56,851 nt of DNA, taken from assembly GCA_015063545.1 (NCBI GenBank), contig SVTX01000010.1:1-56851 (forward strand), written 5' to 3'. Positions 20,653 through 36,294 of the stretch are shown here, in pieces (the stretch's first letter is position 1; the number at the start of each line of letters is the position of its first letter). A model generated the notes under the pieces. That model was not told where the DNA came from and ran no database searches. It saw only the letters and a list, made by a program, of their open reading frames with translations. The position numbers were made by a program, and so were the translations under genes. Origin of the DNA: Oscillospiraceae bacterium (GTDB lineage Bacteria; Bacillota; Clostridia; Oscillospirales; CAG-272).

Positions 20653-22362
20653 ATGGACGAAAACAAATCCTATAACGATATGGATTTTCACGGTCAGAAT
20701 ACGAATAATGAAACCGAAATTCCTAACAGCACAAGTAATGAGCAGGCGCCATCTCCTGTGTATGATAATCTCCCCCCCGTAAATAGCGAAAGCTACGGCA
20801 GACCTCCCGTATATCCTTCACAGCCCTATGTTCTCGATCCTCAATTCACGTACAGTTACAACGCTCAACAGCCTCAAAACGGGCAGTACGGTACCCCCAC
20901 TCCCCCGCCCGCGACAGAAGCAGGAACGCCACCCCAAGCCCCCCAAAAGATCGGCGGTTGGTACGATCAAATGGGACAGTACGTATTCCCCGACGGCAGT
21001 TTTTACGATATATACGGAACCTATCACCCTGTATATTCTCAAGCAACACAGGCATTTAACTGGTCTCCGGATCCTCAGCCCGAGCCTCAACCCGAGCCTC
21101 AACCCGAGGAAACCCCTCAGCCCGGCATAGAAGATCTTTTTGAACAGAACTCTCCCGATTCTGAAGATGCGCCTGCTCCCAAAAAGAAAAAGAACGGCTT
21201 TAAAGTCACTTTGATAGTCATGGCATGCGTATTTGGCGTTGCTTTCCTTATTCTCGCAGCCGCGCTTATATTTGGACTTTTTGAGTCCTTCCCCGGCATC
21301 TCCGATGACGACATGAGCGTAAACATCGTGGTTTCCGACAAGGGCCCCACGGCTATTGAGGACGGCATGGCATCAAAAGATGTTCTTGATAAAGCAACCC
21401 AATCCACAGTTGTTATCACAGTACAAAAAGGAACGTCTACCGGTCTTGGAAGCGGATTTATTATTCACGAGGACGGATATATAGTTACTAACTACCACGT
21501 TGTATCCGGATATACCGATATCACTGTTGAGCTTTACAATGCGACCTCATACAAAGCTACTCTCGTTGGCGGAAGTGAACGCGATGACATTGCGGTAATT
21601 AAAATCACCGCCGATAATCTTCCCGTAGCTACTATAGGCAAGAGCGTTTACTGCTATTCAGGCGAGCGCGTTTATGCAATAGGATGTCCCAGCAGCTATG
21701 ATTTCGCATGGACAATATCCACGGGAATAATTTCTCATCCCAACAGAACCGTGACGATGTACAACGATGACGGTAGCGTAGATAAGGTCATGTCTGTGAT
21801 CCAAACCGACGCGGCAGTAAATCACGGAAATTCCGGCGGCCCGCTTATCAACACTCGCGGAGAGGTCATAGGAATAGTAACTATGAAAAAATCCGACAGC
21901 GCAGGCATTGGATTTGCCATTCCGATAGACGGCGCGCTTGAAATAGTCAGCGAGCTTATCAAGGACGGAGACGCAAGTGATATAGATTCCACTGTTGCAT
22001 ATCCCCGCCCCATGATAGGAATAAGCTGTATAGGCGTTACAGCCGATAAGTATTATTTCACCGACGGAATAAACATAAAGGAAATATCCGCGCAGGAAGT
22101 AACCAAATACCCCGAAAAAAACGTATTTTATGCTCCTGTTAACGGTATATACGTCGCCGATACTGACAAAAATTATAATGCTACAGACGTTTTGCAACCC
22201 GGAGATATAATCCTCACCATAGGTGACCTCTCTGTATACACGAGATATCAGCTTTCCGCATACATCAACAGATATAAACCAAGTGAAAGCGTAAAGCTCA
22301 CAGTCTACAGAAACGGCGAAACCATCTCAGTAGACGTTTTGCTTGCGGAAGAAATAAAATAA
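20653..22362 (+). CDS. HtrA/DegP-type membrane serine protease with PDZ domain
   Basis: 569 residues. The long N-terminal cytoplasmic part (about 1-180) is Pro/Gln/Tyr-rich and ends in PEPQPEPQPEPQPEE repeats. One membrane helix (about 184-206) follows, then a trypsin-like domain with the triad His (VTNYHVV, about 282), Asp (RDDIAVIKI, about 310) and Ser (GNSGGPL, about 394). The C-terminal PDZ domain contains QPGDIILTIGDLSVYTRYQL. Such proteases clear misfolded envelope proteins. The start is at ATG 20653, with AAAGGTGG six bases before it. It ends at a strong terminator. Confidence 0.92.
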   Translation: MDENKSYNDMDFHGQNTNNETEIPNSTSNEQAPSPVYDNLPPVNSESYGRPPVYPSQPYVLDPQFTYSYNAQQPQNGQYGTPTPPPATEAGTPPQAPQKIGGWYDQMGQYVFPDGSFYDIYGTYHPVYSQATQAFNWSPDPQPEPQPEPQPEETPQPGIEDLFEQNSPDSEDAPAPKKKKNGFKVTLIVMACVFGVAFLILAAALIFGLFESFPGISDDDMSVNIVVSDKGPTAIEDGMASKDVLDKATQSTVVITVQKGTSTGLGSGFIIHEDGYIVTNYHVVSGYTDITVELYNATSYKATLVGGSERDDIAVIKITADNLPVATIGKSVYCYSGERVYAIGCPSSYDFAWTISTGIISHPNRTVTMYNDDGSVDKVMSVIQTDAAVNHGNSGGPLINTRGEVIGIVTMKKSDSAGIGFAIPIDGALEIVSELIKDGDASDIDSTVAYPRPMIGISCIGVTADKYYFTDGINIKEISAQEVTKYPEKNVFYAPVNGIYVADTDKNYNATDVLQPGDIILTIGDLSVYTRYQLSAYINRYKPSESVKLTVYRNGETISVDVLLAEEIK

Positions 22363-22368
22363 AATAGA

Positions 22369-22405
22369 AATATTGCAAGGATAGTTGTCCTTGCAATATT
22401 TTTTT
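22369..22405 (+). terminator. Terminator of the HtrA gene
   Basis: Stem AATATTGCAAGGA / TCCTTGCAATATT, loop TAGTTG, then a T-run. Confidence 0.9.
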
Positions 22406-22471
22406 GATTGGTTGGGGTGCTTGGCGCTCTTTCGTCGAGCAAAAAGTAGAAAGCGGAGTGCAGCTTTGCAC

Positions 22472-22531
22472 AAGAATCAGAACTCTCAGCAAGTTCGACG
22501 AGCAAACTTGGTGTAGCGGTTCGATATTCTT
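22472..22531 (+). repeat. T-arm-mimic palindromic element E1
   Basis: Outer arms AAGAATCAGAAC (22472-22483) and GGTTCGATATTCTT (22518-22531), with an inner hairpin CAAGTT / AACTTG (22490-22495, 22505-22510). The right arm carries the GGTTCGAT core of a tRNA/tmRNA T-loop on the plus strand. It has the same layout as E2, E3 and the array at 27401. Confidence 0.6.
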
Positions 22532-22534
22532 AAA

Positions 22535-22618
22535 TGGTGAGTGAGGGGAATCGAACCTTTACATAATTTGCTCCGCAAATTATGTGTAGGAGTTCTTCTT
22601 GTCCCCTCACCTCCACCA
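22535..22618. repeat. Element E2: two inverted copies of the tmRNA 3' end around a hairpin
   Basis: Left part GTGAGGGGAATCGAACC (22541-22557) is identical to bases 22815-22831 inside ssrA. The right part TCCCCTCACCTCCACCA (22602-22618) is identical, on the opposite strand, to the last 17 bases of tmRNA including CCA. Between them is a perfect 11-bp hairpin, ACATAATTTGC / GCAAATTATGT with loop TCC (22561-22585). It lies about 190 bases beyond the ssrA 3' end. Confidence 0.75.
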
Positions 22619-22662
22619 CAAAAAAAGCACGCTATGCGCGTGAAGGTAATCACAAGCAACAG

Positions 22663-22755
22663 AAGATTTTCAAGGACATCGAGTCCTTGAAAATCTTGGG
22701 AATCAGAACCATTACCCGACTCGCAAGCGAGCGAGTGTAATGGTTCGATTCTCCC
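22663..22755. repeat. Perfect 15-bp hairpin joined to T-arm-mimic element E3
   Basis: 22663-22697: AAGATTTTCAAGGAC / GTCCTTGAAAATCTT with loop ATCGA. Directly abutting, 22698-22755 is E3: GGGAATCAGAACCATTAC against GTAATGGTTCGATTCTCCC, with inner ACTCGC / GCGAGT. E3 ends in a T-loop-like GGTTCGATTC and is followed by a CAGCCA that resembles a tRNA end. No tRNA body is found upstream. Confidence 0.65.
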
Positions 22756-22766
22756 TCGCGTCAGCC

Positions 22767-22807
22767 ATAAAATAAGGGCACTCCCTTGCGGAGTGCCCTT
22801 ATTTTAT
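22767..22807. terminator. ssrA terminator
   Basis: An 18-bp stem whose arms begin ATAAAATAAGGGC and end GCCCTTATTTTAT, with loop CTTGC. It lies directly beyond the tmRNA CCA end on the minus strand and has T-rich flanks on both strands. Confidence 0.85.
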
Positions 22808-23200
22808 GGTGGAGGTGAGGGGAATCGAACCCCTGTCCAAAAACCTCTTGATACAACTTTCTCCGGGTGCAGTTTGTCATTTAGTCTTTTTCACTTGGGC
22901 GCGGGCAAACACGCTCCCAAGCAAAGCAACCGTTTTGTGCGTGATCGGTTCAACGGTCACCGCCGATGCACGTTCACCGCTGAAATGACGCTCAGTCCCA
23001 AGCCGCGATACTCTTGGGAGGAACGGGCGGTCCGCAGACCGCAGCACTGCCATTGTCAAGTCCAAAAGGACTTAACAATTAGGCAGCCATAGCAACTGTA
23101 TCGTTGTCGTTTATTTTTTAAAGTTTGAGCAGTTAAAGAGATTACTCGGCTCTACCCGCTTATCATACCTCAAAATCCCTGTCGAAACCATTGCACCCCC
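22807..23200 (-). ncRNA. ssrA: Transfer-messenger RNA (tmRNA)
   Basis: On the minus strand the 5' end is GGGGGTGCAATGGTTTCGAC and the 3' end is GGTTCGATTCCCC-TCACCTCCACCA. GGGGGTG pairs with CACCTCC as the acceptor stem, and GTTCGATTC is the T-loop. The tag frame ends ...AAC GAC AAC GAT ACA GTT GCT ATG GCT GCC TAA, giving a tag tail NDNDTVAMAA; the exact resume codon (AAC or one or two codons earlier) is not certain. tmRNA rescues stalled ribosomes with SmpB, whose gene is just upstream on the same strand. The CCA end is encoded. Confidence 0.95.
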
Positions 23201-23321
23201 ATGCGTCAACGCCAAGCGTCGACGAGTGAGATGTTCCGCTTCACAGAACTTGATGTTGCAAGCCAAGGCTTGCAGTAATATTTGCTCCGCAGGAGCAAAT
23301 GAGTTTTGCTTGCGCAAAAAG
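23201..23321. repeat. smpB-ssrA gap with three short hairpins
   Basis: GCAAGCC / GGCTTGC, ATTTGCTCC / GGAGCAAAT (loop GCA) and TTTTGC / GCAAAA lie within about 65 bases. The AATTTGCTCC-type hairpin recurs at 980 and 22561. No clear ssrA promoter was resolved in this stretch. Confidence 0.5.
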
Positions 23322-23789
23322 TTAAAATCTGTCCTTCATCTTGCGGTCTATTTCCCTGTCAGCGTCGCGCTTCGCGATCGAGTCGCGCTTGTCGTAGAGC
23401 TTTTTGCCGCGGCAAAGTCCGACCTCGACCTTAACGTGTGAACCCGAAAAATACAGCGAAAGCGGTATAAGCGACACTCCCTTCTGAGCAACCAGCCCAT
23501 GCAGCTTCATTATCTCACGCTTGTGCATAAGCAGTCTGCGCTGACGCAAGGGATCCTTATTAAAAATATTCCCATGCTCGTAAGGACTTATGTGCATACC
23601 TATAACGAAAAGCTCACCGTTTTTGACGTCGCAGTAGGAGTCCTTGAGATTGACTGCGCCTGCGCGTATTGACTTGACTTCAGTACCGAAAAGCTCAATT
23701 CCCGCTTCGTATTTCTCATCCACAAAGTAATCGTGCCACGCCTTTTTGTTCTGCGCGATTATCTTGCCCGAATTTTTCTTATCAGCCAT
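23322..23789 (-). CDS. smpB: SsrA-binding protein SmpB
   Basis: 155 residues. Conserved blocks are [53 protein letters not shown] and a basic C-terminal tail starting [18 protein letters not shown]. SmpB binds tmRNA and places it in the stalled ribosome. It is directly upstream of ssrA on the same strand, a common Firmicutes order. A CTCC-containing region upstream gives a good ribosome binding site (GAGGGGCAG before ATG). Confidence 0.97.
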
Positions 23790-23896
23790 CTCTGCCCCTC
23801 CTTTCTGTGATTTGCCTATATAATTATACAGTTTTTCGCCGTCTCTGTCAACAGTTTTGATAAAAGAAATTTCGACCGCATTTGCAACACTTTTAT

Positions 23897-24001
23897 CGTA
23901 GCGGGCTGTCGAGAGCGCCAGCCCCTACGACAAACTAATCAATTATCCGCGCGCAAAATTGATGTTCTATTAACCGTAGGGGACGGCGCCTCGACGTCCC
24001 G
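23897..24001. repeat. Two REP-like palindromes between smpB and the CotF genes
   Basis: 23897-23929 pairs GGGCTG with CAGCCC inside CGTAG...CTACG. 23976-24001 runs GTAGGGGACGGCGCC to CGACGTCCCG and is nearly identical to copy A at 940-966. Confidence 0.7.
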
Positions 24002-24059
24002 TAAAGTTTGTGCATATAAATCACAAAAGCACGGGTCGCCCCGTGCCTTGCGTATAATT

Positions 24060-24308
24060 TCAACAGCCTTGACTGTATTTCTGCTTTAAGGTGTCAATCT
24101 TCTGCGGCTCAACATTGGTAGCAGGATACCATCCCTTCTGCGCCATCTTGGAATATATCTGATTCTGCATCGAGATACATTCATCAAGCGACTGCGCAAA
24201 TGCCGCGTGTACGTTCTGCGTGGACGACTCTATCGCGCCGTGCATCATAAGATCGCACTCCCCTTTTACGTTGAGCAAAATGTTTTCCATTATCTGCTTA
24301 TCCTGCAT
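24060..24308 (-). CDS. CotF-like spore coat protein
   Basis: 82 residues beginning MQDKQIMENILLNVKGECDL, with MMHGAIESSTQNVHAAF and SKMAQKGWYP: the pattern of the short clostridial CotF family. These helical proteins are found in the spore coat. It lies 12 bases downstream of the 58-residue gene and is probably co-transcribed. Expression under mother-cell sigma factors is expected from the family; no promoter was resolved. Confidence 0.85.
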   Translation of the reverse strand: MQDKQIMENILLNVKGECDLMMHGAIESSTQNVHAAFAQSLDECISMQNQIYSKMAQKGWYPATNVEPQKIDTLKQKYSQGC

Positions 24309-24320
24309 ATCTTCCCCTCC

Positions 24321-24497
24321 TTAACCGAGCAATCCGTAAAATTTGTTAAAGCACTGCGTGTGTTTGTCCGCGAGGCTTTGGACAAAGCTTTTCAACTCCG
24401 CGTCCTGAAGCTGCCCTGCCGCCTCGGTGCAGGTCGCCTTGATCTGTGTCTCATGACCGAGGACGTCTTCAATGTAAAGCAATTCTTTTGGTGACAT
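24321..24497 (-). CDS. Small CotF-associated helical protein
   Basis: 58 residues, MSPKELLYIEDVLGHETQIK, predicted helical, with C-terminal HTQCFNKFYGLLG. The start at 24497 is chosen because AAGGGGGAATT precedes it; an in-frame upstream ATG at 24668 would add unrelated residues. It sits directly before the CotF-like gene and resembles the N-terminal helical half of CotF proteins, so the two may form one coat component. Confidence 0.75.
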   Translation of the reverse strand: MSPKELLYIEDVLGHETQIKATCTEAAGQLQDAELKSFVQSLADKHTQCFNKFYGLLG

Positions 24498-25262
24498 AAT
24501 AATTCCCCCTTTTTGTTGGTATAGAGAGTGTTGACAAAACCAAAACGCTTTATACAAAAAAGCCCCGCAAAATAAATTTGCGAAGCCTTTTATGAATTTT
24601 ATCATCCCTTGTCCTATCCTTCCCTGCCTTGAGCTTTTTTCTGTTGCATAAGCTCTTAATAAACACAAACGCTTTATAAAATTCTAAAAACAGAATAAAG
24701 TTGCCGCTGAAAATTTCTTTTCCCAGCGGCGTTTGTGTCAGGCTATTTTAAATTGTCAAGCTATCTGCGTGATTACAAGATGCGCAGATACGGCGCGATA
24801 TGTCGTTTTTTGACGAACAGATACTGACTAATTTCGTCGACGATTTTGCTTAAAGTAAGACCTGCGCAATGTCTTTTTCATATAGTTCCCCTATCCTTGG
24901 ATAGCGATTTTATAATTTTATACTTTAATTTTGAGGATTCGCTACACAACTTCAATAAATGCCTTGATTTATTTATAAAAAGTGATATAATAATAACAAC
25001 GATACACCTACTTAATATAAAAAAGAGCTTTTTTGTTTACCGGAGCGAGTACTGTTCCCTTTTTCGGCTTTCTACATAATGAATTTGATAAAAATGAAAA
25101 TTCCACCTATAGAGAGCAGATTAGTTCTGTCGTATTCAAATTTATTCAGCGACTCGGGGTTTGCGTTTTTGTGCGTGGCTTCGGTTACGCACTTTTTTAT
25201 TTCAGGGTACTTCATGGCAATATTGCATAAATTTTAATGTATCAGATATGGAGAAAAACATT
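24498..25262. other. Intergenic region with hairpins and a possible small transcription unit
   Basis: Contents: a wobble-rich hairpin with T-runs at 24556-24592; GCCGCTG / CAGCGGC at 24703-24730; TATCTGCG / CGCAGATA at 24762-24790, like the repeats at 19410; a promoter-like TTGATT-16-TATAAT at 24964-24991; and a terminator GTGCGT..ACGCAC plus TTTTTT at 25171-25198. The promoter and terminator enclose about 200 bases with no good gene, so a small RNA is possible. Some short reading frames here look like decayed coding sequence. Confidence 0.4.
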
Positions 25263-25757
25263 ATGAAAATGAACAAATTAGACAAAAGCGTACTTAAATT
25301 ATGGTACATTCGAGCGGCAATCGGTGCTTTGGCACTTTTGGGAGTCGCGGTCGGCGTATTAGTAATTCTGCTTGCGACCGAAGCACCGAGTAATGTGATG
25401 CTCGCCGTTTCTTTAAGCGCGGGAATACCCGTTATTTTGCTTCTTTGCATCACTTTGATAATGCCCGCTCTACGCTATAAAATGTACTCTTGGGGTTATG
25501 ACGACAAAAGAATTGTTGTAAAGCAAGGCGTGATATTCAGACAGAGAGTGGTTATCCCTGTTTGTCAGATTCAAGACCTTCACAGAACACAAGGTCCGAT
25601 TATGATGATGTTAAAGCTTAGCGGCGTAACCATTTCCACCGCAGGCTCGAACTTCGATATTTCCACCCTTACCACCAATGAGGCGGATCGTCTGATCGAT
25701 GCGCTTGAGCAAAACCTTGAAATAAGAGTCGAGGAGCTGAAAGATGAAGAGATTTGA
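25263..25757 (+). CDS. PH-domain (bPH2) membrane protein, YdbS-like
   Basis: 164 residues. Two membrane helices (about 14-36 and 45-67) precede a bacterial PH domain: YSWGYDDKRIVVKQGVIFRQRVVIPVCQIQDLHRTQGPIMM... This is the YdbS pattern. The start at 25263 has GGAG nine bases before it. It overlaps the next gene by 14 bases, so the pair is translated together. YdbS/YdbT-type proteins are linked to envelope-stress resistance in Bacillus; the molecular role is not clear. Confidence 0.85.
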   Translation: MKMNKLDKSVLKLWYIRAAIGALALLGVAVGVLVILLATEAPSNVMLAVSLSAGIPVILLLCITLIMPALRYKMYSWGYDDKRIVVKQGVIFRQRVVIPVCQIQDLHRTQGPIMMMLKLSGVTISTAGSNFDISTLTTNEADRLIDALEQNLEIRVEELKDEEI

Positions 25758-27273
25758 CAAAGGATATATCTATTCAGGTTTATTGACGGACTTCTTCTAC
25801 AGCGTCTTCTTGGTTTTTATTCTTCTTAAAGACTTTTTTCTTGATGAGGAATCAGCTTCCGAGGATATTGCCACGGCAGCCCCCTTTTTCGCAATTGGAT
25901 TTATTGTCATCTATTTATGTTTTGTTGTCTACAGAATCATGTATTACAAAACTTCAGGCTATGAACTGACAGACAAGGAGATAAAATGCAATAGGGGCGT
26001 GCTTTTTAGAAAACGCTCGGTACTCGATTACAAAAAAGTACACGCCATCAATAAGAAACAAAATATTATTCAAAGGATCTTCGGAATCGCCGTTTTAACG
26101 GTAGACAGCGGCTCCGCCAATACCTCACACCAAGCGGAAATTACGATCATCGAAAAGAATGCGGTCGTAGACTCTCTGCTCGACGAATTGAATTCGCTGA
26201 AAGAAAGCGGTGTCAGGAGCGATGCGAGTGCGCAACAGGCAGAAGAAGTACTTCTATCCGATAAAGATAGTATGTACCATTTTACCTCCGGCAAGAAAAT
26301 GCTGTATACACTCATCAATATTGCTTCCACTGCCTTCTTCACCGCGTTGTTTGCGGTATTATCTATTATCGTCATCGGTCTTGGTAAGGGAATGTTGCAG
26401 CTTGACTTTCTAGGCACGTGGGGGCAGTATTTCCTCTATGCTATTTTGATCACGGCAGGAGCAATACTACTGTTCTCGATATTCTCCTTTATCGGAAGCA
26501 TTGTTCATTCCTTCGTTGGTTATTACGATTTCACCGTCACAAAGCGTGATAACAATATTCAGATATCCTACGGACTTTTGGAAAAGCACACAAATACCTT
26601 CAGCTACGATCGAATCAAAGCGGTAAAAATATCGCAAGGACTTGTTCAAAGAATTCTTGGCTTCGCCTCCATCAAACTTGAGGTAATCGGTTATACTGTA
26701 AGTAGCGGTGATAGTGATAATAATGCCGGTCTTGGCATACTCATCCCGTTCTGCAAATACGATGAGATCGACGAAATACTCGGCAAGGTTTTGCCCGATT
26801 ATATTCCGACCGAAAAGAAAACGAAATCAGTATCCATTTTCCCGTTCATGTCTTGGTTCCTTCTGATATTTGGTATCACAGTAGGCATTATATTGACAGG
26901 AACTGTTGCTGTTATGAAATTATTAGATGCGCCTGCTACTGCTTTATATACAGTTACATTTGTAACTTTAGGCTTGACTGCTATCGTGATTTTAATAAAA
27001 CTCGCAAGTGCAATCCTCGCATATCATACCAACGGTCTTGCCGTTGAAAACGGGAAGATAACCGCATATAGCGGCAGCTTCAACAAAAATATTACAGTGT
27101 TTATGGCTAAGCACCTCGTTGCTGTAGAAACCGTAACCACTCCTCTTCGCAAGAAGCGGGGGATCTCAAGCCTCGTAATGCACCTTAAAACCAATGAATC
27201 ATCCAATGAAGTAAAGGTTCATATCCAAAAAGATACGCTTTCCGATGAACTGGAAAAAATGTTGATGTTATGA
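25744..27273 (+). CDS. PH-domain (bPH2) membrane protein, YdbT-like
   Basis: 509 residues: pairs of membrane helices alternate with three PH-like domains. The first contains YELTDKEIKCNRGVLFRKRS, the second DFTVTKRDNNIQISYGLLEK, the third HTNGLAVENGKITAYSGSFN. This is the YdbT architecture and it overlaps the YdbS-like gene. The two proteins probably act as a membrane complex. Confidence 0.85.
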   Translation: MKRFDKGYIYSGLLTDFFYSVFLVFILLKDFFLDEESASEDIATAAPFFAIGFIVIYLCFVVYRIMYYKTSGYELTDKEIKCNRGVLFRKRSVLDYKKVHAINKKQNIIQRIFGIAVLTVDSGSANTSHQAEITIIEKNAVVDSLLDELNSLKESGVRSDASAQQAEEVLLSDKDSMYHFTSGKKMLYTLINIASTAFFTALFAVLSIIVIGLGKGMLQLDFLGTWGQYFLYAILITAGAILLFSIFSFIGSIVHSFVGYYDFTVTKRDNNIQISYGLLEKHTNTFSYDRIKAVKISQGLVQRILGFASIKLEVIGYTVSSGDSDNNAGLGILIPFCKYDEIDEILGKVLPDYIPTEKKTKSVSIFPFMSWFLLIFGITVGIILTGTVAVMKLLDAPATALYTVTFVTLGLTAIVILIKLASAILAYHTNGLAVENGKITAYSGSFNKNITVFMAKHLVAVETVTTPLRKKRGISSLVMHLKTNESSNEVKVHIQKDTLSDELEKMLML

Positions 27274-27379
27274 CTTTTGCTTTCACAAACGCCCTTGTTC
27301 CATTACGGAGCAAGGGCGTTTCGTCTAAGTAATTGAAATACATAAAATATGATATAATGGCAAAAAAGCAAAATACGAC

Positions 27380-27756
27380 ATATCAAAAGGTCGACCTCCC
27401 GACCGCCGACACCAAAAAAGAGAGGCATCCGTCTGGATGCCTCAACGAGTCGGGGTCAGAACACTCACATCAACTGCGTTGATGTAGTCGGTTCGCCCCT
27501 ACGACCGCCGACACCAAAAAATAGAGGCATCCGTCTGGATGCCTCAACGAGTCGGGGTCTGAACACTCACATCAACTGCGTTGATGTAGTCGGTTCGCCC
27601 CTACGACCGCCGACACCAAAAAAGAGAGGCATCCGTCTGGATGCCTCAACGAGTCGGGGTCAGAACACTCACATCAACTGCGTTGATGTAGTCGGTTCGC
27701 CCCTACGACCGCCGACACCAAAAAATAGAGGCATCCGTCTGGATGCCTCTCTTTTT
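27380..27756. repeat. Tandem 102-bp repeats carrying terminator and T-arm-mimic hairpins
   Basis: Units start at 27401, 27503, 27605 and 27707 (the last partial, running into the tRNA-Leu 3' end). Each unit has GAGGCATCC / GGATGCCTC plus a T-run on the minus strand (a Rho-independent terminator), then GGGGTC(A/T)GAAC, an inner hairpin ACATCAAC / GTTGATGT and GGTTCGCCCC. Units 1 and 3 share AAAAAAGAGAGG and GTCAGAAC. Units 2 and 4 share AAAAAATAGAGG; unit 2 reads GTCTGAAC. A two-unit block therefore seems to have duplicated. The GGTTCG...GACCGCCGACACC end resembles the tRNA-Leu T-arm and acceptor end, inverted. A partial copy precedes unit 1. No gene is present. Confidence 0.85.
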
Positions 27757-27843
27757 TGGTGCCGGTGGTCGGGGTCGAACCGACACGGTATCGCTACCAC
27801 TGGATTTTGAGTCCAGCACGTCTGCCAATTCCATCACACCGGC
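27757..27843 (-). tRNA. tRNA-Leu (anticodon CAA)
   Basis: 87 bases on the minus strand, starting GCCGGTGTGATGGAATTGG and ending GACCACCGGCACCA with CCA encoded. The acceptor stem is GCCGGTG / CACCGGC. The anticodon stem-loop is CTGGA-CTCAAAA-TCCAG, giving CAA. A long variable arm of class II type is present (TGGTAGCGATACCG), and the T-arm is GTCGG-TTCGACC-CCGAC. The terminator hairpin at 27728-27749 follows. Confidence 0.95.
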
Positions 27844-27876
27844 GTATGAATCAATCGCGCCAATTCACACTCAATG

Positions 27877-27905
27877 AGTATATCATAAATATACATACAA
27901 GTCAA
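27877..27905 (-). promoter_or_regulatory. Promoter of tRNA-Leu
   Basis: Minus strand: TTGACT (27905-27900), 17-base spacer, TATACT (27882-27877), 34 bases before the mature 5' end. Confidence 0.85.
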
Positions 27906-29284: not shown

Positions 29285-29478
29285 ATGTGGACATACGAGA
29301 AAAAATTACAATTCCCTGTTAAGATCAAAAATCCCAACCCCACACTTGCCAACATCATAGTATCCCAGCTTGGCGGTCCCGACGGTGAGCTTGCCGCTTC
29401 CATGCGATACCTCAACCAAAGATATGCTATGCCCTATAACGAGGTAGTGGGCATACTTACCGACGTCGGCACTGGCGT
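29285..29478 (+). pseudogene. cotJC: cotJC 5' fragment (manganese catalase-like coat protein) interrupted by an integrated element
   Basis: MWTYEKKLQFPVKIKNPNPT, then LGGPDGELAASMRYLNQRYA and GILTDVGT match the first about 65 residues of CotJC. In intact proteins the next residues are EELAHLEM, which carry metal ligands; here the frame runs instead into G-V-P-S-M and stops at 29506. The break coincides with the end of a large serine recombinase gene on the opposite strand. AAAGGAG precedes ATG 29285. The remaining about 120 codons are not in the window. The split may be repaired by excision in the mother cell. Confidence 0.88.
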
Positions 29479-31125
29479 ACCGTCTATGTTCCACATTGTA
29501 TTTTGAAGATCTAAATCTTCATGTTTTAATGCTTTTTTTAATGTATAGCTCCATTTATGTGGTATCATTTTTAGATACACATCTATATTGTCTTTATCAT
29601 TAACAACAATTTTGTCTGTCAGACCTCCATAAAACACCTCATCATACTCTATACCATTAATAATATCTTTTAGCGCAGAAGATATTTCTTCTATAACTTC
29701 TAAATTGTTCTCTTGCCCATATTCTCTTTCATTGATTAAATTAATTCTTTCTTTCAAATTCATTATTTCATCATCATACTTTTCGCGTATGTTTCTAAAC
29801 TCTTCCTTAGTTATATCTCCGGATACATATATATCTAACAGTTTTGCCTGTTTGCTTTCGTATTCATTTAATTTTTGTATTATCTCATCTTTGCTGCATG
29901 AAGCTGTGTTAGTATTTAAAACATACTTGATAGCAGAAACAAGTTGCTCTACTATCTTTTCTTTGGAAAAATTTAATTGTTTAATGACCAGATTCATTAT
30001 GTGTACAATATCTTCATTGCGTATTCCTAATCCTCGACACCCAACTTCATTTCCAGCTTTATCAATATGCGGACTTCCATGAGTGGCTGCTTCATAGCAC
30101 CGCCAAGATTTGTAGCGACTACCGTCACTTCTTGTTTTGTATCTTGCAACAAAACTCGCTCCACAACAACCACACTTTATTTTCCCCGAAAAGGGATATC
30201 TGTTGCTATATTTCTCTTTACCTTTCAATTGATCGGATCTTTCATCGAGAATTTTATTAGCCCTGTCAAACATTTCCCTGGAAATTATTGCTTCATGGTG
30301 ATCTTTTATAATTACAAATTCTTCCTCGCCCCGATTGTACTTTTTTTCATGTGACAAGAAATCAGGCGTTATTGTCTTTTTTTGAACTAAATCTCCACAA
30401 TATTTTTCATTTCGTATTACTCTTAGAATAACCGTGTTGGACCATCGTTTAATATGCATTGGGTAAATTCCTTCTTCAAGCAACTCGCGTGCAATAACAT
30501 GTGTGCCTTTGTGCTCATTCACAAATTTGTGGAATATCAAGCGCACAATTCTTGCTCCATCGGGATTCACATACATTTTTCCATCCTTAACATCGTACCC
30601 CAGCATGCTACGGCCAAAAACTACGCCTTGTTCCATCTGTCGTTTTTGCCCCCACTTCACCCTATCCGATGTTTTACGGCTCTCTTCTTGAGCTATAGAC
30701 GACATGATTGCAAGCCTCAGTTCCGAGTCGCCATCCAGTGTATTTATGTTATCATTCATAAAAATAACACCTACACCATTCTTTTTCAACTCTCTTGTGT
30801 AGTATATGCTATCCAATGTATTCCTGGCAAACCTCGATATTTCTTTAGTCACAATTAAATCAAAACAGTGACTTTTAGCTAAGGTTATCATCCTGTTAAA
30901 TTCTACTCTCTTTTTTGTGTTTGTGCCGGTTATACCTTCATCAGCAAAAACCTCATATAGTTCCCAGTCTGGATGATTTGCAATATACTGACTAAAATAC
31001 CTTTGTTGGCTTGCAAAAGAGTTCGCTTGATCATCGTCATCTGTTGAAACACGGCAATATGCCGCCACTTTTTTCTTGGAATTGGTCACTTTTCTTTCTT
31101 GATTCAAACGCTCGTATTTGTTCAT
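29434..31125 (-). CDS. Large serine recombinase (site-specific integrase)
   Basis: About 563 residues. Resolvase domain with catalytic Ser in AAYCRVSTDDDDQANSFASQ, the conserved TKEISRFARNTLD, then the recombinase domain (GRSMLGYDVKDGKMYVNPDG), a zinc ribbon starting SGKIKCGCCGASF, and a C-terminal coiled coil (about 425-500). AAGGAG eight bases before ATG 31125 sets the start. The last about 20 codons run across the attachment site into antisense cotJC, so the C-terminus depends on where the element sits. Such enzymes integrate and excise phages and conjugative elements, including sporulation-gene elements. Confidence 0.95.
   Translation of the reverse strand: MNKYERLNQERKVTNSKKKVAAYCRVSTDDDDQANSFASQQRYFSQYIANHPDWELYEVFADEGITGTNTKKRVEFNRMITLAKSHCFDLIVTKEISRFARNTLDSIYYTRELKKNGVGVIFMNDNINTLDGDSELRLAIMSSIAQEESRKTSDRVKWGQKRQMEQGVVFGRSMLGYDVKDGKMYVNPDGARIVRLIFHKFVNEHKGTHVIARELLEEGIYPMHIKRWSNTVILRVIRNEKYCGDLVQKKTITPDFLSHEKKYNRGEEEFVIIKDHHEAIISREMFDRANKILDERSDQLKGKEKYSNRYPFSGKIKCGCCGASFVARYKTRSDGSRYKSWRCYEAATHGSPHIDKAGNEVGCRGLGIRNEDIVHIMNLVIKQLNFSKEKIVEQLVSAIKYVLNTNTASCSKDEIIQKLNEYESKQAKLLDIYVSGDITKEEFRNIREKYDDEIMNLKERINLINEREYGQENNLEVIEEISSALKDIINGIEYDEVFYGGLTDKIVVNDKDNIDVYLKMIPHKWSYTLKKALKHEDLDLQNTMWNIDGTPVPTSVSMPTTSL
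29464..29478. other. Putative attachment site (attL) of the element in cotJC
   Basis: Homology to CotJC ends in the codons for D-V-G-T (GACGTCGGCACTGG). The crossover of the serine recombinase is inferred to lie in or near GGCACTG. The partner site is not in the window, so the exact core cannot be fixed. Confidence 0.5.
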
Positions 31126-31167
31126 ATACACATCTCCTTCTTGCGTAAGTTCAGTATAACAATATCA

Positions 31168-31389
31168 CTAAACATCGAATTTGTCAAAGCTACAACTATG
31201 TTGTATATGACTGTTCAATTGTCTTTCTAAATAATCAACACAATCAAGCATTTGTTGATGTGTTATCAGGTTTCTTTTTTTCAGTGATACGAGCAATGCC
31301 TTTTGAATTTCCATATTGATTTTTTCGTCATTATTCAGCACAAAATTCACATCCCCTGCATCAGCACACACAAAATCCCTATGTTTCAT
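31168..31389 (-). CDS. Small conserved protein upstream of the recombinase (SHOCT-like C-terminus)
   Basis: 73 residues, MKHRDFVCADAGDVNFVLNN then INMEIQKALLVSLKKRNLIT, HQQMLDCVDYLERQL. The second half resembles SHOCT-type short helical segments often found beside recombinases in conjugative elements. It lies 42 bases before the recombinase start on the same strand. Function is unknown. Confidence 0.65.
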   Translation of the reverse strand: MKHRDFVCADAGDVNFVLNNDEKINMEIQKALLVSLKKRNLITHQQMLDCVDYLERQLNSHIQHSCSFDKFDV

Positions 31390-31634
31390 AAAACGGCCTT
31401 ATCTCCTTTCACTATAATTTTATGTGCCATCACTTTAAAAGTTTATTTATCAAACGACCGACTGCTACTCGGTTCCATAGGAATCTCACCTCCCCCGGGT
31501 ACTCCGCAGGCTGCGCCTTTCGGCTACAGAAGTATCAATATCACTCGTGCTTGTCATCGCCACATCAAATGCAATTTGATTATTTTCTATATAAGTTTTA
31601 TCGCTCGTTTTCATAAAGAAAAGTCATGGCGCAC
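31390..31634. other. Non-coding stretch between the recombinase module and the virB4 fragment
   Basis: On the minus strand it begins GTGCGCC directly after the virB4 fragment and contains several potential short stems (GCCGAAAGGC, GCAGCCTGC, ACCGA..TCGGT). A structured RNA or a decayed group II intron 5' part is conceivable but not shown. No gene is seen. Confidence 0.3.
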
Positions 31635-31778
31635 CTATAGGATCGGCTTAGACCACTTATTTTTCCCAACAAGAAAAATACCATCTTCAAAAACCTCGTA
31701 TATAGGTATTGCTTCTTCTACAGTTGTAGGCACGTTGCTGTTCTCATGCTTATTTTTTGATATATTTAAGATTCCCAT
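31635..31778 (-). pseudogene. virB4/traE-type conjugation ATPase, 47-codon 5' fragment
   Basis: MGILNISKNKHENSNVPTTV, then EEAIPIYEVFEDGIFLVGKN. This resembles the opening of VirB4-family ATPases of Gram-positive conjugative elements, which normally follow prgI. The start has AAGGATAAAA before it and lies nine bases after the prgI stop. The frame ends at TAG 31637 where an intact gene would continue for hundreds of codons, so only the 5' end survives. Confidence 0.65.
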
Positions 31779-31786
31779 TTTTATCC

Positions 31787-32089
31787 TTACCCTTCATTGC
31801 CCGTAAATACCAAATATTTGGGCATTTTTATCGTAGATTGAAACCATGCTTTTACTATTTGCTCCGCGTTCATGCCATTATATTTCACAAAACCAAGTGC
31901 AGCAAATGGCACTGCTCCAAGCACACAAATCCATGAAAGAATTTCCTTGTGTAAATGCGACCTGAAGGCAAAGTAAATTCCAACCGCAACACCGCATGCC
32001 AAAACAGAGAAAATGGCCTGCCGTACCGACAAGCCAAAAAACATAGTTTCGTTATACTCTTTAATTTCTTTGTTTATTTTTATTTCCAT
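31787..32089 (-). CDS. PrgI family conjugation protein
   Basis: 100 residues: a short N-terminal cytoplasmic stretch (MEIKINKEIKEYNETMFFGL) followed by two membrane helices and a soluble tail, as in PrgI proteins of type IV secretion in Tn1549/Tn916-like elements. TTTTGGAGGACAA precedes the start. It is followed by the virB4 fragment, the normal gene order. No other transfer genes are present, so it is probably a relic of a conjugative element. Confidence 0.8.
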   Translation of the reverse strand: MEIKINKEIKEYNETMFFGLSVRQAIFSVLACGVAVGIYFAFRSHLHKEILSWICVLGAVPFAALGFVKYNGMNAEQIVKAWFQSTIKMPKYLVFTGNEG

Positions 32090-32144
32090 TTGTCCTCCAA
32101 AATGAAAAGGTGACGTAAAGCCACGTCACCTTTTGTGCTGTATT

Positions 32145-32456
32145 TCATCTTACCAAAATTCCCGACTTTTCAGGGAAGGTAGGATCATTTCGCGTCAATG
32201 CAAGAAGTCTGCAAGCTGCACCCTCGGGATGATTTCTTCCTGCTTCCCACGCTTCAATAGTCTTCACAGAAACACCCATATATTTTGCAAACAATACTTG
32301 GGTAAGTCCTGTATTTGTCCGAATTTGCTTGATATCACTCGGGGAAAAAGTATCCACCGGTGCTATACTCAAGGTTGTAGTTTTGGCTTTTAATGTTCCT
32401 TTTTCATAAGCAATAGCTTGCTCTATGCCCGTTTTGATATCATCAAAAACACCCAT
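32145..32456 (-). CDS. HigA-type antitoxin with helix-turn-helix
   Basis: 103 residues. MGVFDDIKTGIEQAIAYEKG, then a helix-turn-helix: DIKQIRTNTGLTQVLFAKYM-GVSVKTIEAWEAGR. AAGGGAGAATAAAC precedes ATG 32456, which is preferred over an upstream ATG. It lies 28 bases downstream of the RelE-like toxin gene. The toxin-first order is the HigBA type; the antitoxin should neutralise the toxin and repress the shared promoter. Confidence 0.85.
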   Translation of the reverse strand: MGVFDDIKTGIEQAIAYEKGTLKAKTTTLSIAPVDTFSPSDIKQIRTNTGLTQVLFAKYMGVSVKTIEAWEAGRNHPEGAACRLLALTRNDPTFPEKSGILVR

Positions 32457-32484
32457 GTTTATTCTCCCTTCTAACATTTATTTT

Positions 32485-32832
32485 TTATGAATTATTCTCT
32501 TTGAGTTGTTGTTCGAGTATGGCGATTAGTTGCTTAAGCTCGTTTCTTTCTTCTTTCGTCAAGTTATCCTTTTCATTTTTAGGATATGCAGTAATCAGAA
32601 AAATTTTCTCATATATTTCAAAATCAATATATATTACTCTGACTCCTCCGCTTTTACCTTGATGCTCAAATGCAAACCGCATTTTTCGAACTCCACCTGT
32701 TCCCTGCATCACAGCTCCTATCTTGGGATCAGCAAGTATTTCATCTTGAAGTCTGCGAAGATCATTATCATCCAATCCCAAATCCTTCCATTTGGCACGG
32801 AAATGTGGCAATTCAACAAATATTCTCGTCAT
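32485..32832 (-). CDS. RelE/HigB-type toxin
   Basis: 115 residues. TRIFVELPHFRAKWKDLGLD, then GGVRKMRFAFEHQGKSGGVR-VIYIDFEIYEKIFLITAYPK NEK: the pattern of HigB-2/RelE mRNA-cleaving toxins, with basic residues in the last strands. It is the first gene of the pair and has a consensus promoter. The C-terminal helix (LTKEERNELKQLIAILEQQL) is as in the family. The pair probably helps keep the element. Confidence 0.88.
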   Translation of the reverse strand: MTRIFVELPHFRAKWKDLGLDDNDLRRLQDEILADPKIGAVMQGTGGVRKMRFAFEHQGKSGGVRVIYIDFEIYEKIFLITAYPKNEKDNLTKEERNELKQLIAILEQQLKENNS

Positions 32833-32863
32833 TATAAAACTCCTGATGTCTTATTTCAATTAT

Positions 32864-32892
32864 ATTATACCCTATTTAATCGGGTTTGTCAA
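32864..32892 (-). promoter_or_regulatory. Promoter of the toxin-antitoxin pair
   Basis: Minus strand TTGACA (32892-32887), 17-base spacer, TATAAT (32869-32864): full consensus. Confidence 0.9.
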
Positions 32893-32996
32893 GCAATTTT
32901 TATGGATTTTTTTCGTTTTCCTTCATTGCTACGGTATGTGTGCCACAAAGGTATGACAAGCCGAAAGAGTTGAGGGAGTTTAGTACACCTTGCAAA

Positions 32997-33125
32997 ATGA
33001 GGGAACGGCTTTGCGGTATTTGTGATTATGCCGTTCACGGAATGGACGGAGATTTGATAGATTGCAATACAAGCATTACAAGACCGCCACAGAGTTGGTG
33101 CTATGTTGAGGAAAGGAAAGAATGA
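32997..33125 (+). CDS. Small Cys-rich phage protein, start uncertain
   Basis: At least 42 residues, MRERLCGICDYAVHGMDGDL followed by a further Cys and WCYVEERKE. The C-x2-C and later Cys suggest a zinc knuckle. The frame is open further upstream (VPQRYDKPKELREFSTPCK), with no good start or ribosome binding site, so the gene may have lost its 5' end where the phage module meets the toxin-antitoxin module. Confidence 0.5.
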   Translation: MRERLCGICDYAVHGMDGDLIDCNTSITRPPQSWCYVEERKE

Positions 33126-33126
33126 T

Positions 33127-33414
33127 ATGGCACGATATTATGAAGAACAAACCGTCCTTAATGCGGTTTGCAGAGGATGTAATGAGGAATTTTCGGACGA
33201 ACCTTGCGAGCCTTCCGATTGCTTGCTTTTGAGAGAAATAAAAAACCTCTCCACCGCCGATGTTGTACCAACGAGCGAGGTTGCGAGGGAGATTTTTGAG
33301 GAGATTGAAAATCTATCGGTAAATACGGTTGACGATTGGGGGAATAGTGTGCAAATTATAAGCGAAATAGATTATGCCGAACTCAAAAAGAAATACACGG
33401 AGGGCGGGAAATGA
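33127..33414 (+). CDS. Phage protein of unknown function
   Basis: 95 residues, MARYYEEQTVLNAVCRGCNE, with a C-x2-C pair and another Cys pair (EPCEPSDCLL), then an acidic helical part. GGAAAGGAAAG precedes ATG 33127. It overlaps the next gene by four bases (ATGA). No function recognised; similar small Cys-containing proteins are common in clostridial phages. Confidence 0.65.
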   Translation: MARYYEEQTVLNAVCRGCNEEFSDEPCEPSDCLLLREIKNLSTADVVPTSEVAREIFEEIENLSVNTVDDWGNSVQIISEIDYAELKKKYTEGGK

Positions 33415-33728
33415 CAAAGAAACGCTTTATTAAATTACTGATGTCACACGGTAAGCAACCACGAGAGGCGAGAATGATAGCACTCCGCTATAACGCTCGC
33501 GGTATGTCTTACAAGAAAGCCTATAACTTCTATTATGCAGAAACCTCCCTAATGAGGGCAATCCTCAAAATAGGAAAAGTGAGCATAAAGTTGGGCGATA
33601 GTATAACAAACGCCGCACAATCATTGAAAAAATTTACGGAGGCAAGCCGAGAGCAGCCAATACGCAGACTTACACCGGAAGAACTCGCAAAAATTCAAGG
33701 TTTACCCAACGAAACTGAAAGAGGTTGA
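33411..33728 (+). CDS. Basic phage protein of unknown function
   Basis: 105 residues, strongly basic: MTKKRFIKLLMSHGKQPREA, ARGMSYKKAYNFYYAE, and a C-terminal LTPEELAKIQGLPNETERG. It overlaps the preceding gene by four bases and ends one base before the methyltransferase start, so all three are one operon. No family is recognised; nucleic-acid binding is possible from its charge only. Confidence 0.65.
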   Translation: MTKKRFIKLLMSHGKQPREARMIALRYNARGMSYKKAYNFYYAETSLMRAILKIGKVSIKLGDSITNAAQSLKKFTEASREQPIRRLTPEELAKIQGLPNETERG

Positions 33729-33729
33729 T

Positions 33730-35514
33730 ATGTTAGAACAAGAACTTGTTGTAGATAATTTTGCCGGGGGCGGTGGAGCTTCCACAGGCATTGAAATGGC
33801 AATCGGCAGAAGCGTCGATATTGCTATAAATCACGATCCTGATGCTATCGCTATGCACAGAGAAAATCACCCTACCACGAAACACTATTGTGAGGACGTA
33901 TGGGAAGTAGATCCCGTAGAGGCTTGCGGTGATAAGTCGGTAGCACTCGCTTGGTTTTCGCCTGACTGCAAGCATTTTTCAAGAGCGAAGGGTGGCAAAC
34001 CTGTCGATAAGAAAATCAGAGGTCTTGCGTGGGTTGCTATCAAGTGGGCTTACCTTGTACGCCCTCGTGTGATTATGATGGAAAATGTACCCGAGATTAT
34101 GACTTGGGGGCCACTCGGAGAAGATAACAAACCTATTAAAGAGAGAATGGGAGAGACATTCGACGGATTTCTCGCTGCTCTTTCATTCGGATTGTCGCGC
34201 TCAAGCCCCGCATTTCATGAGATGTGCGAAGCTCTCGGTGTTTCCGAGAACTCTGACATAGCCCTCGCTTGCGAACGCGGTCTTGGATATGACATTCAGT
34301 ACAGAGAGCTTAAATCCTGCGATTACGGCGCACCGACTACTCGAACACGCTTCTATATGATCGCTCGTTGTGATGGCAAGCCTATTGTATGGCCCGCACC
34401 GACACACGGAGATAAGCGCAATCCCAAAGTCAAGGATGGCACACTCCTTCCTTACCGCACCGCGGCAGAGTGCATAGATTGGTCTATCCCGGCAAAGAGC
34501 ATTTTTGAGAGAGACAAGCCTCTTGCAGAAAACACTCTCCGCAGAATAGCCAAAGGCATACAGAAGTTTGTCATTGACAATCCCGAGCCGTTTATTGTTC
34601 ATTATAAGTTTGATAACGAGCCGGAGAGCATTGACGCTCCGCTTTCCACGGTGACGGCAGTAAACAGTCATTACGTTGTTACACCTACGATTATGTGTAA
34701 CAACACCAATAACAACGGCGCAAGCGCAGATTCTCCGCTGCCGACCGTTACCACAGGCAACAGGAATTTTGTAGTTACGCCTACAATCGTTCCTATTGGG
34801 TATGGAGAGCGCAAAGGTCAAGAGCCTCGTGTAAACAGCGTCGAAGATCCCCTTGGTACAATCGTGTCAAGCGGTAAGCATTATCTTGCTATGCCCTCTC
34901 TGATACAGTATCACTCCGAAACGTCCGAGGATGAGGTCAGAGGTCAGGAGCTTACAGAGCCTCTTATGACTGTTGACACTTCACCGCGATATGCCCTCTC
35001 GGTCGCAAACATTATGAAGAATTACGGCGGCAATTATCAAGGATCGGGTAGCGCGGTGGACGAGCCTCTTGATACTGTTACGGCAAAGGATCACAACTCC
35101 CTTGTCACAGCTCATATTTTGACGATGCGTAACAATATGGACGGTCAGGCAGTAGATGAGCCAATTACAACTATTTCTTGTAAGGAGCATCATGCAGAAG
35201 TTCAAGCGTTTCTTGTGAAATATTTTTCGGGCGAAAAAGTCAAGCCTGTCGATGCACCGCTTGATACTATTACAACAAAAGACCGCTTTGCCGTTGTGAC
35301 TGTTCACGGAGAGGAATACATAATCACGGACATTAAGATGCGAATGCTCACGCCAAGAGAACTATTCAAGGCGCAGGGCTTTCCTTCTGATTATATTATT
35401 GATACGGCAAACGGCAAGCCTTATCCAAAGAGTAAACAAGTCGCAAGATGCGGTAATGCGGTGACACCGCCCGTCCCGGCTGCTCTTGTGAGAGCTAATT
35501 TGTTGGAGGTGTAA
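33730..35514 (+). CDS. C5-cytosine DNA methyltransferase with seven internal repeats
   Basis: 594 residues. Motif I VVDNFAGGGGASTGIEMA, nucleophile Cys80 in FSPDCKHFSRAKGG, motif VI MMENVPEI, and motifs IX/X at the end (RMLTPRELFKAQGFPSDY, KQVARCGNAVTPPV). Between about 290 and 545, in the target-recognition region, a unit of about 30-40 residues with core EPLxTVTAKDHxxLVT occurs seven times (APLSTVTAV, SPLPTVTTG, DPLGTIVSS, EPLMTVDTS, EPLDTVTAK, EPITTISCK, APLDTITTK). It modifies cytosine, probably to protect phage DNA. No cognate nuclease is adjacent. Confidence 0.92.
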   Translation: MLEQELVVDNFAGGGGASTGIEMAIGRSVDIAINHDPDAIAMHRENHPTTKHYCEDVWEVDPVEACGDKSVALAWFSPDCKHFSRAKGGKPVDKKIRGLAWVAIKWAYLVRPRVIMMENVPEIMTWGPLGEDNKPIKERMGETFDGFLAALSFGLSRSSPAFHEMCEALGVSENSDIALACERGLGYDIQYRELKSCDYGAPTTRTRFYMIARCDGKPIVWPAPTHGDKRNPKVKDGTLLPYRTAAECIDWSIPAKSIFERDKPLAENTLRRIAKGIQKFVIDNPEPFIVHYKFDNEPESIDAPLSTVTAVNSHYVVTPTIMCNNTNNNGASADSPLPTVTTGNRNFVVTPTIVPIGYGERKGQEPRVNSVEDPLGTIVSSGKHYLAMPSLIQYHSETSEDEVRGQELTEPLMTVDTSPRYALSVANIMKNYGGNYQGSGSAVDEPLDTVTAKDHNSLVTAHILTMRNNMDGQAVDEPITTISCKEHHAEVQAFLVKYFSGEKVKPVDAPLDTITTKDRFAVVTVHGEEYIITDIKMRMLTPRELFKAQGFPSDYIIDTANGKPYPKSKQVARCGNAVTPPVPAALVRANLLEV

Positions 35515-36294
35515 ATGAAAGTAATTAAAATCAACTTACCCACAGAACTTACGAGCATCGAGCTTCATATTTTCGCAGATGAACATATCGGCGATGCTCA
35601 CTGTGACATGAAACGTCTGATGGAACGCATTGAACACGTTAAGAATACTCCCAATGCCTACTGCATTATGAACGGCGATATTCTTGATAATGCTACCAAA
35701 ACTTCTATCGGAGATACATACGCACAGGTATTCAACCCTATGGAGCAGCTTCACAGAGCCGTTGAATTGTTCGGGCCTATTAAGGATAAGGTACTCTGTA
35801 TCACACACGGCAATCACGAAAATCGCACATATAAGAAGGAAGGCATCAACCTCTCCGCTATGATCGCAAATCAACTCGGTCTGCAAGACCGATATTCGCC
35901 TACGTCTGCTCTAATGTTCTTGCGCTTCGGCAAAGGCTCACCGAGCGCAACACGCGGCAGGAGAATACTTTATACCATCTATGCCTTGCATGGTAGCGGT
36001 GGTGGTCGCAAGGAGGGCGCGAAGGCTATACGTCTCGCAGACATGGCTGCCATAGTCGATGTCGATATATACATACATAGTCACACGCACCTCCCTATGA
36101 TTATGAAACAAGGCTTCCACAGAGTTGACCTGACAAACAGTTCTGTCGCGCTTGTTGACAAGCTGTTTGTGAATACTGCCGCCAACCTTAATTATGGCGG
36201 TTATGGCGAGGCGCAGGAGTTCAAGCCGTCAAGCAAGGAAACGCCCGTCATTTATCTCGACGGCAAACGCAAGCAATTTAAAGCGAGGTTGTAA
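35515..36294 (+). CDS. Phage metallophosphoesterase
   Basis: 259 residues of the calcineurin-like phosphoesterase fold. All metal motifs are present: DEHIGD (D-x-H), NGDILDNAT (GDxxD), THGNHENR (GNHE) and HSHTHLP (GHxH-type). The ATG follows the methyltransferase stop directly, so the genes are co-transcribed. Substrate is unknown; phage versions can act on nucleic acids or nucleotides. Confidence 0.88.
   Translation: MKVIKINLPTELTSIELHIFADEHIGDAHCDMKRLMERIEHVKNTPNAYCIMNGDILDNATKTSIGDTYAQVFNPMEQLHRAVELFGPIKDKVLCITHGNHENRTYKKEGINLSAMIANQLGLQDRYSPTSALMFLRFGKGSPSATRGRRILYTIYALHGSGGGRKEGAKAIRLADMAAIVDVDIYIHSHTHLPMIMKQGFHRVDLTNSSVALVDKLFVNTAANLNYGGYGEAQEFKPSSKETPVIYLDGKRKQFKARL

Follow-up and report, generated by a model that had tools for sequence, protein, structure and literature searches.

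How do pieces of a transfer RNA (tRNA) gene come to lie behind that same gene, folded back on themselves and repeated in tandem? The question is posed by contig SVTX01000010.1 of the Oscillospiraceae bacterium assembly GCA_015063545.1 (56,851 nucleotides, analyzed at full length and referred to here as the window), in which short non-coding palindromic units follow the 3' ends of the transfer-messenger RNA (tmRNA) gene ssrA and of a tRNA-Leu(CAA) gene. An earlier note on this DNA had described the units as elements that target or imitate T-arms. We lean toward the explanation that they are tRNA-specific integrative elements, about 100-180 bp long and mostly gene-less, that inserted at the T-loop and were amplified in tandem. 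Besides E. coli, our material consisted of draft assemblies, metagenome-assembled genome (MAG) contigs and viral contigs, and arrays of this kind can break assemblies. G and L numbers designate genomes and loci.

Each unit carries the 3' end of the RNA gene that it follows

Both arrays lie downstream of RNA gene 3' ends, and both host genes are on the minus strand. The features are as follows.

22807-23200, minus strand: tmRNA gene (ssrA), host gene of the first array (ARAGORN; Rfam RF00023, 159.5 bits)
22753-22821, no strand: terminator-like palindrome reaching the tmRNA CCA and acceptor end, with its inverted copy (inverted repeat I1, 32 nt, 88%)
22698-22757, minus strand: tmRNA unit 1 (E3 of the earlier note), with inverted T-arm, hairpin and T-arm copy GGTTC-T-GATTCCC containing an extra T
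22663-22697, no strand: perfect hairpin separating tmRNA units 1 and 2 (inverted repeat I4, 15 nt, 100%)
22541-22610, minus strand: tmRNA unit 2, with T-arm copy lacking an extra base, hairpin ACATAATTTGC, and inverted T-arm and acceptor
22472-22531, minus strand: tmRNA unit 3 (E1 of the earlier note), with T-arm copy GTTC-T-GATTCTT, hairpin and inverted T-arm
27757-27843, minus strand: tRNA-Leu(CAA) gene, host gene of the second array (ARAGORN; Rfam RF00005)
27400-27749, minus strand: tandem array by tRNA-Leu, 102-bp period, 3.4 copies (TRF; repeat search)
27656-27703, minus strand: array unit nearest tRNA-Leu, with T-arm copy GTTC-T-GACCCC, hairpin ACATCAAC/GTTGATGT and inverted T-arm
27554-27601, minus strand: middle array unit, with T-arm copy GTTC-A-GACCCC
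27452-27499, minus strand: distal array unit, with T-arm copy GTTC-T-GACCCC

In the orientation of its RNA gene, a unit runs from the 3' end with its CCA through a terminator-like palindrome, the arms of which extend into the CCA and acceptor, then through a degenerate inverted copy of the acceptor and T-arm and a hairpin, and ends with a direct-orientation copy of that gene's T-arm. Three units succeed one another behind the tmRNA gene, their hairpins all different, and the arm GTGAGGGGAATCGAACC of the second is an exact 17-nt stretch of the tmRNA 3' part. The tRNA-Leu array contains three near-identical 102-bp units (97% matches between units by TRF), each made up of a terminator-like hairpin, an inverted acceptor copy and the fold-back element. 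The architecture that had been claimed for E1, E3 and the array units at 27452, 27554 and 27656 is present in the sequence, although the inventory overlooked the tmRNA-side element at 22541-22610, and unit 27554, given as GGGGTCAGAAC, actually reads GGGGTCTGAAC, a difference of one base. The outer arms had also been said to adapt to the neighbouring RNA gene; they are indeed gene-specific, but rather than being merely adapted, each arm is a copy of the 3' end of its own gene and lies downstream of that gene.

Units cluster behind tRNA and tmRNA genes

The genome to which the window belongs (G000) is a 1.83-Mb assembly of 69 contigs in which RF00005 identifies 32 tRNAs, and downstream sequence was read for 30 of them. 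The pattern ACATN{12,34}ATGTRARRGTTC, a hairpin followed by GTTC, matched 18 times in this genome, compared with once for the reversed control. A tRNA or tmRNA gene lies upstream of 15 of the 18 matches at a distance of no more than 400 nt, and of 12 at no more than 300 nt; one more lies behind an apparent tRNA-Pro 3' fragment, and two overlapping matches mark one place at which no RNA gene was found. The element architecture therefore exceeds chance. By contrast, the literal motif of the earlier note (TCAGAAC...GGTTCG) matched five times, four of them in the window, compared with three for its control, and so that wording lacks clear enrichment. The proposed check, whether matches cluster within 300 bp of tRNA and tmRNA 3' ends, thus gave a positive answer through the pattern scan, and the lack of enrichment near RNA genes that was to have spoken against the idea was not seen.

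One locus in G000 (L064, C55, near 99.5 kb) contains what appears to be the 3' part of a tRNA-Pro with a unit behind it, unrelated sequence having replaced the 5' part; ARAGORN detects no intact tRNA there.

In four genomes of the genus, we considered fetched tRNAs that end in CCA and have at least 200 nt of downstream sequence, and scored recurrence of each tRNA's own T-loop core within 400 nt, allowing one inserted base and one substitution. The own core recurred downstream of 53 of 97 tRNAs (15/27, 9/15, 13/27 and 16/28). It recurred upstream of one of the 33 tRNAs with enough sequence (27 of these 33 are in G000), and a foreign tRNA core was present in 124 of 970 tests. A stricter, earlier count in the four genomes gave 13/27, 8/15, 10/28 and 11/28. 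Unusual T-loops, too, are reproduced in the copy behind the gene, as in tRNA-Tyr, where GTCCGAATCC recurs as GTCCTGAATCC (L083). Together with the pattern scan, these counts bear out the description of the units as non-coding palindromes that are linked to T-arms and concentrate at the 3' ends of tRNA and tmRNA genes.

Two other patterns were tried and set aside. An altered T-loop pattern gave six matches in G000 (control, three), three of them (C33, C40 and C55) with no tRNA nearby, and 87 in 11 other genomes of the genus (control, 24), a mixture of units and coding hits. As a measure of spread over the order it was rejected because its matches were mostly coding-like and seldom near a tRNA: in six high-count genomes, 30 of 43 matches were fetched, and a single tRNA-Arg of G083 accounted for the only two with a tRNA nearby. 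The long, two-hairpin form was sought with a pattern of its own, which matched one of 394 genomes and was too narrow.

Occupied and empty sites reveal insertion

At three sites, all in relatives and distinct from the window's two arrays, a restored gene, a displaced 3' fragment and the native flank occur together. In L145 (SVQX01000026), two 174-bp units follow the tmRNA gene, and behind them a displaced 3' end is followed by the flank AACGTGTACTGGACGAACAC; a near-identical flank, AACGTGTATTGGACGAACAC, directly follows the tmRNA gene in the array-less loci L132, L133 and L136. L153 has a displaced 3' end followed by a diverged form of the L145-type flank. At tRNA-Ser(GGA), comparison of G002 with G000 reveals a displaced end (one of 2000 shuffles was as good) with the native terminator behind it. 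At these sites the unit sits inside the gene, and insertion has occurred. The intact gene of L145 reads GATTCC and its displaced copy GACTCC, while L133 has GACTCC, L132 AACTCC and L136 AATTCC; since L136 has AATTCC, the GATTCC/GACTCC pattern only hints that the junction may lie 5' of this T/C base, in the T-loop.

Alternatively, the units could be a mutational by-product in which the tRNA 3' end is copied, directly and inverted, through stalling or template switching at the hairpin and terminator, and unequal crossing-over expands the result into tandem units, with neither recombinase nor function. Such an origin would suit the palindromes that flank the units, the local derivation of the arms, the near identity of many tandem units (97% in the window) and the differences in unit number between sister species at the same tRNA, for example tRNA-Gln(TTG). 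We nevertheless consider it somewhat unlikely, as units hold terminators and hairpins that are missing from the empty locus (L145 compared with L136), and as, in the analyses that follow, inner hairpins resemble those at other tRNAs of the same lineage and an extra A or T recurs at one T-loop position over different tRNAs.

An extra T-loop base and variable hairpins characterize the units

Among 100 distinct T-arm copies, the base between C56 and R57 was T in 34, A in 26, G in one and C in one, and was absent in 38; hence 60 of 100 copies have an extra A or T, which enlarges the T-loop. Each physical copy was counted once, and loci fetched by a pattern demanding A or T were left out (an earlier tally of 114 copies, with T 37, A 31, G 2, C 1 and none 43, had counted some under two or three neighbouring tRNAs). 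The units had been thought to imitate T-arms, and T-arm sequence is present in them, but imitation is an inexact term for it: the host gene's 3' end has been displaced or duplicated, and the loop of the copy is often enlarged. Recognition of the units by TruB or another T-loop enzyme, as the earlier note proposed, would fit the GTTCRANTCC-like cores in the arms. In the units read, however, the 5' strand of the T-stem is mostly not retained beside the copy, so that a T-arm would not form, and the enlarged loop is a further difficulty; we found no support for TruB as recogniser and regard this role as highly improbable.

A perfect stem of at least 8 bp occurs within 55 nt upstream of the T-arm copy at 36 of 62 first copies, compared with 0.2% of shuffles, and 38 of the 62 beat all 50 of their own shuffles (first copies within 200 nt were used; two, at tRNA-Gln(CTG) in L022 and L078, are actually left arms). 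The stems vary widely from tRNA to tRNA, and units align poorly within them; the arms are tRNA-specific and the hairpins have no common sequence. Inner hairpins of different tRNAs, taken as the 34 nt before the copy at 55 loci, are more alike within than between the two species pairs (20 of 5000 label permutations), a result suggestive of movement or conversion from one tRNA locus to another inside a lineage. Inner hairpins seem to spread from tRNA to tRNA in a lineage, with arms that remain those of the individual tRNA. By reading the sequences, we also recognized a longer form with two hairpins in some family members and a minimal form with a 5-nt loop in the order-level genome G083.

In the four genomes, the longest exact inverted match reached p<=0.01 at 21 of 63 loci with a direct copy and at three of 35 without. 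The left arm pairs with its own right arm better than with a foreign one; p is 0.006 over 59 loci, but the median rank is only 0.36. This pairing, together with maintained hairpin stems, would be expected if the units produced a stable RNA. Several single-unit loci are arranged accordingly, with tRNA, terminator, hairpin, tRNA 3' end and a second terminator in succession; an annotated small RNA (sRNA), RttR, lies right behind E. coli tyrV, and E. coli rRNA operons are reported to contain sRNAs flanked by dual terminators (PMC8144298). A terminator stands ahead of the units, however, no Rfam family above gathering score covers those of the window, and 44 of 97 tRNAs have no detected unit, indicating that units are not needed for tRNA function in general. 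The occupied and empty junctions would, moreover, still require an insertion step. We therefore judge production of a stable RNA to be unlikely as the explanation.

Two further kinds of structure accompany the units. A second palindromic element, approximately TTACG...CGAGTTTTGC...GCAAAACGTCGCC, is apparently inserted just after the GANTC of T-arm copies (L123, L088, L113, L110 and L232). Larger pseudo-tRNA copies occur in tandem arrays of tRNA-Thr and tRNA-Met, with palindromes inserted in the anticodon region (L005, L026 and L085).

Few units carry genes, and large serine recombinases adjoin some tRNA fragments

Gene-bearing units seem rare. At the tRNA-Glu of G009 lies a 1362-bp unit with two open reading frames (ORFs), one lipoprotein-like and one of 66 aa, that is absent from the sequence read at that tRNA in G011. 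Neither ORF has a Pfam match, and the NCBIfam match of one, to a complement regulator-acquiring protein, is below cut-off (19.1 of 30 bits). A unit in L232 carries an LRR_5 lipoprotein-like ORF. A long-range copy search in 40 regions of G009 and G007, some of them short and one without a tRNA, returned three loci: the gene-bearing tRNA-Glu unit, a coding-looking second match and a misplaced core. No integrase was found inside an element, the tRNA-Leu units of the window being 102 bp long and the 1362-bp unit holding the two ORFs just described.

Large serine recombinases are encoded in six of nine genomes, including one in the window (29437-31131). In three of the neighbourhoods examined (L232, L344 and L348) such a gene adjoins a tRNA 3' fragment (L344:4395, L348:4283 and L232 at about 2640, in G007, G011 and G009; the fragments read as Asn, Leu and Ser), and units lie behind it in L232 and L348. 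The recombinase ORF of L232, whose CcrB match stays below cut-off (126 of 900 bits), extends into the tRNA-Ser-like 3' fragment and units, and its crossover is not placeable. According to an excerpt of a 2014 paper, only tyrosine integrases were then known to target tRNA genes (PMC4383910). An integrase had been suggested as recogniser; a recombinase is consistent with the occupied and empty sites, and a large serine recombinase would be one candidate for the enzyme.

Several observations stand apart from the units. Long 5' leaders that look similar by eye precede two different lipoprotein-like genes in G009 (L232:2990-3230 and L239:570-790) and are perhaps structured RNAs; neither has an Rfam match above gathering score. 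The window recombinase begins a phage-like stretch (29437-43537) with matches to a large serine recombinase (phrog_95 integrase), a cytosine methyltransferase, an exonuclease-like protein, a resolvase, and small and large terminases. Within it are a Type II hammerhead ribozyme (38337-38406, minus strand, 49 bits) and a pemK RNA motif (31475-31541, minus strand, 63.7 bits). Tandem repeats with periods of 69, 81, 48, 36 and 12 bp occupy 44523-45454, inside a 497-aa ORF (44139-45632, minus strand).

A model for integration at the T-loop

In the model that we favor, the junction would lie in the T-loop, with the position of the extra base, between C56 and R57, as the most probable site. The part of the working gene 3' of the junction (the 3' strand of the T-stem, acceptor, CCA and terminator) would belong to the element, while the gene's original 3' end and native flank would be displaced to the right of it, the arrangement seen at the three sites. 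The element would end in a fold-back site composed of the inverted T-arm, one or more hairpins and the T-arm copy, frequently with an A or T added by the junction, and this could be the attachment site of a recombinase supplied in trans. Repeated integration and unequal exchange may then have produced the tandem arrays, and the elements may be mobile today.

Several results weigh against this model. Clean occupied and empty sites were found in three of 438 comparisons, the remaining comparisons scoring far lower or being just as good at the first position. The extra base is absent in 38 of 100 copies (30 of these 38 in G000 and G002), and the inverted arm is degenerate, with p<=0.05 by local alignment in only 14 of 62 cases. 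Among named relatives (the best 80 of 579 loci around smpB-like genes, in ruminant or other gut Clostridia or Oscillospiraceae MAGs), the own core recurs at four of seven tRNAs and seven of 40 tmRNAs; the latter is hardly above the foreign-core control (36/267) and by itself proves little. The inverted match in these relatives shows the opposite trend from that in the genus, at 0 of 7 loci with a direct copy compared with 8 of 40 without. We could link no enzyme to the sites: Y1 transposase had no match in five of nine genomes (G000, G007, G008, G009 and G011) and had matches in the other four, large serine recombinases had no match in three of nine, the tRNA fragments in L344 and L348 start 5' of the T-loop, and the crossover in L232 cannot be placed at C56/R57. 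Two scans of viral contigs for the altered T-arm gave zero and 13 stretches, the 13 being coding-like and none near a tRNA; a viral source of the units, for which these scans offered no support, was set aside.

A bolder version would treat tRNA genes as parallel integron-like platforms, with the T-loop as double-stranded target, the fold-back element as putative single-strand attachment site and the units as cassettes that accumulate in order. A few cassettes would carry genes, such as the lipoprotein-like ORF of the G009 tRNA-Glu unit, and RtT of E. coli would represent the class among enteric bacteria. The R box of integron attC sites is GTTRRRY, which differs from the right arm of the units, GTTC(W)RANTC, with C as the fourth base. 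We consider both the integron-like platform and this placement of RtT quite unlikely.

If integration at the T-loop is correct, tiny selfish or domesticated elements have replaced the 3' ends of about half of the tRNA genes examined in a genus, and they act below the scale at which tRNA-island finders look. In this uncultured gut genus, tiny mobile-like elements would apparently have colonised tRNA genes on many occasions. The movement of gene-less elements through tRNA genes without killing them would become testable, and the E. coli RtT repeats would gain a comparative frame.

Comparison with known systems

Repetitive extragenic palindromic (REP) sequences, bacterial interspersed mosaic elements (BIMEs) and other miniature inverted-repeat transposable elements are short non-coding palindromes, sometimes in tandem, and resemble the units in both respects. 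REPs share a consensus motif, as stated in the part of the source seen (PMC12306157); unlike them, the units have arms that copy the neighbouring tRNA and hairpins that differ, and Y1 transposase, the enzyme expected for REP/RAYT or IS200/IS605 derivatives, is, as noted, without match in five of nine genomes. Kink-turn, group II intron, retron and TIGR-array readings were considered as ideas and set aside. No description of such arrays was found in the open PMC literature consulted.

Islander-type tRNA and tmRNA islands are similar to the units in that a restored gene and a displaced 3' fragment mark their ends. As described in an excerpt (PMC4383910), Islander requires an integrase gene and discards candidates under 2 kb, and units of the kind reported here would accordingly be filtered out.

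The RtT repeats (Rfam RF00391) are tandem units downstream of a tRNA with direct copies of the tRNA 3' end, a description that also holds for the window arrays. At E. coli tyrV, the repeats are 178 bp apart, each ending in a direct copy of the tRNA's final 19 nt (offsets 159, 337 and 515 after tyrV), and the first contains, upstream of the direct copy, an inverted copy of part of this stretch, GGGGAAGGAT (1/2000 shuffles). The tyrT/tyrV repeats, judged from this one E. coli locus, thus have the same three-part design as the window units, except that the E. coli direct repeat starts at A58 rather than R57. RF00391 gave nothing at gathering score and, within 22350-27900, was not among the matches listed up to E=10; the units therefore resemble RtT in layout without being classed as members.

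The nearest precedent is provided by the Dehalococcoides ssrA islands, which, in the excerpted account (PMC3146451), inserted serially in the middle of the tmRNA T-loop and are accompanied downstream by numerous direct repeats of the 3' end of ssrA. Sixteen of them have a module that includes the CcrB-like serine recombinase DsiB, the gene for which overlaps the att site at its 3' end, and some lack the integration module (PMC3146451). As far as that account goes, these islands share T-loop insertion and repeated 3'-end copies with the units, yet they are gene-bearing and located at ssrA, whereas the units are about 100-180 bp, mostly gene-less, palindromic and found at many tRNAs. We suggest that the units work like tRNA-targeted integrative elements, without assigning them to the islands or to RtT. 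Their nearest known counterparts are the E. coli RtT repeats and the Dehalococcoides ssrA islands, the latter a clear precedent for insertion in the T-loop.

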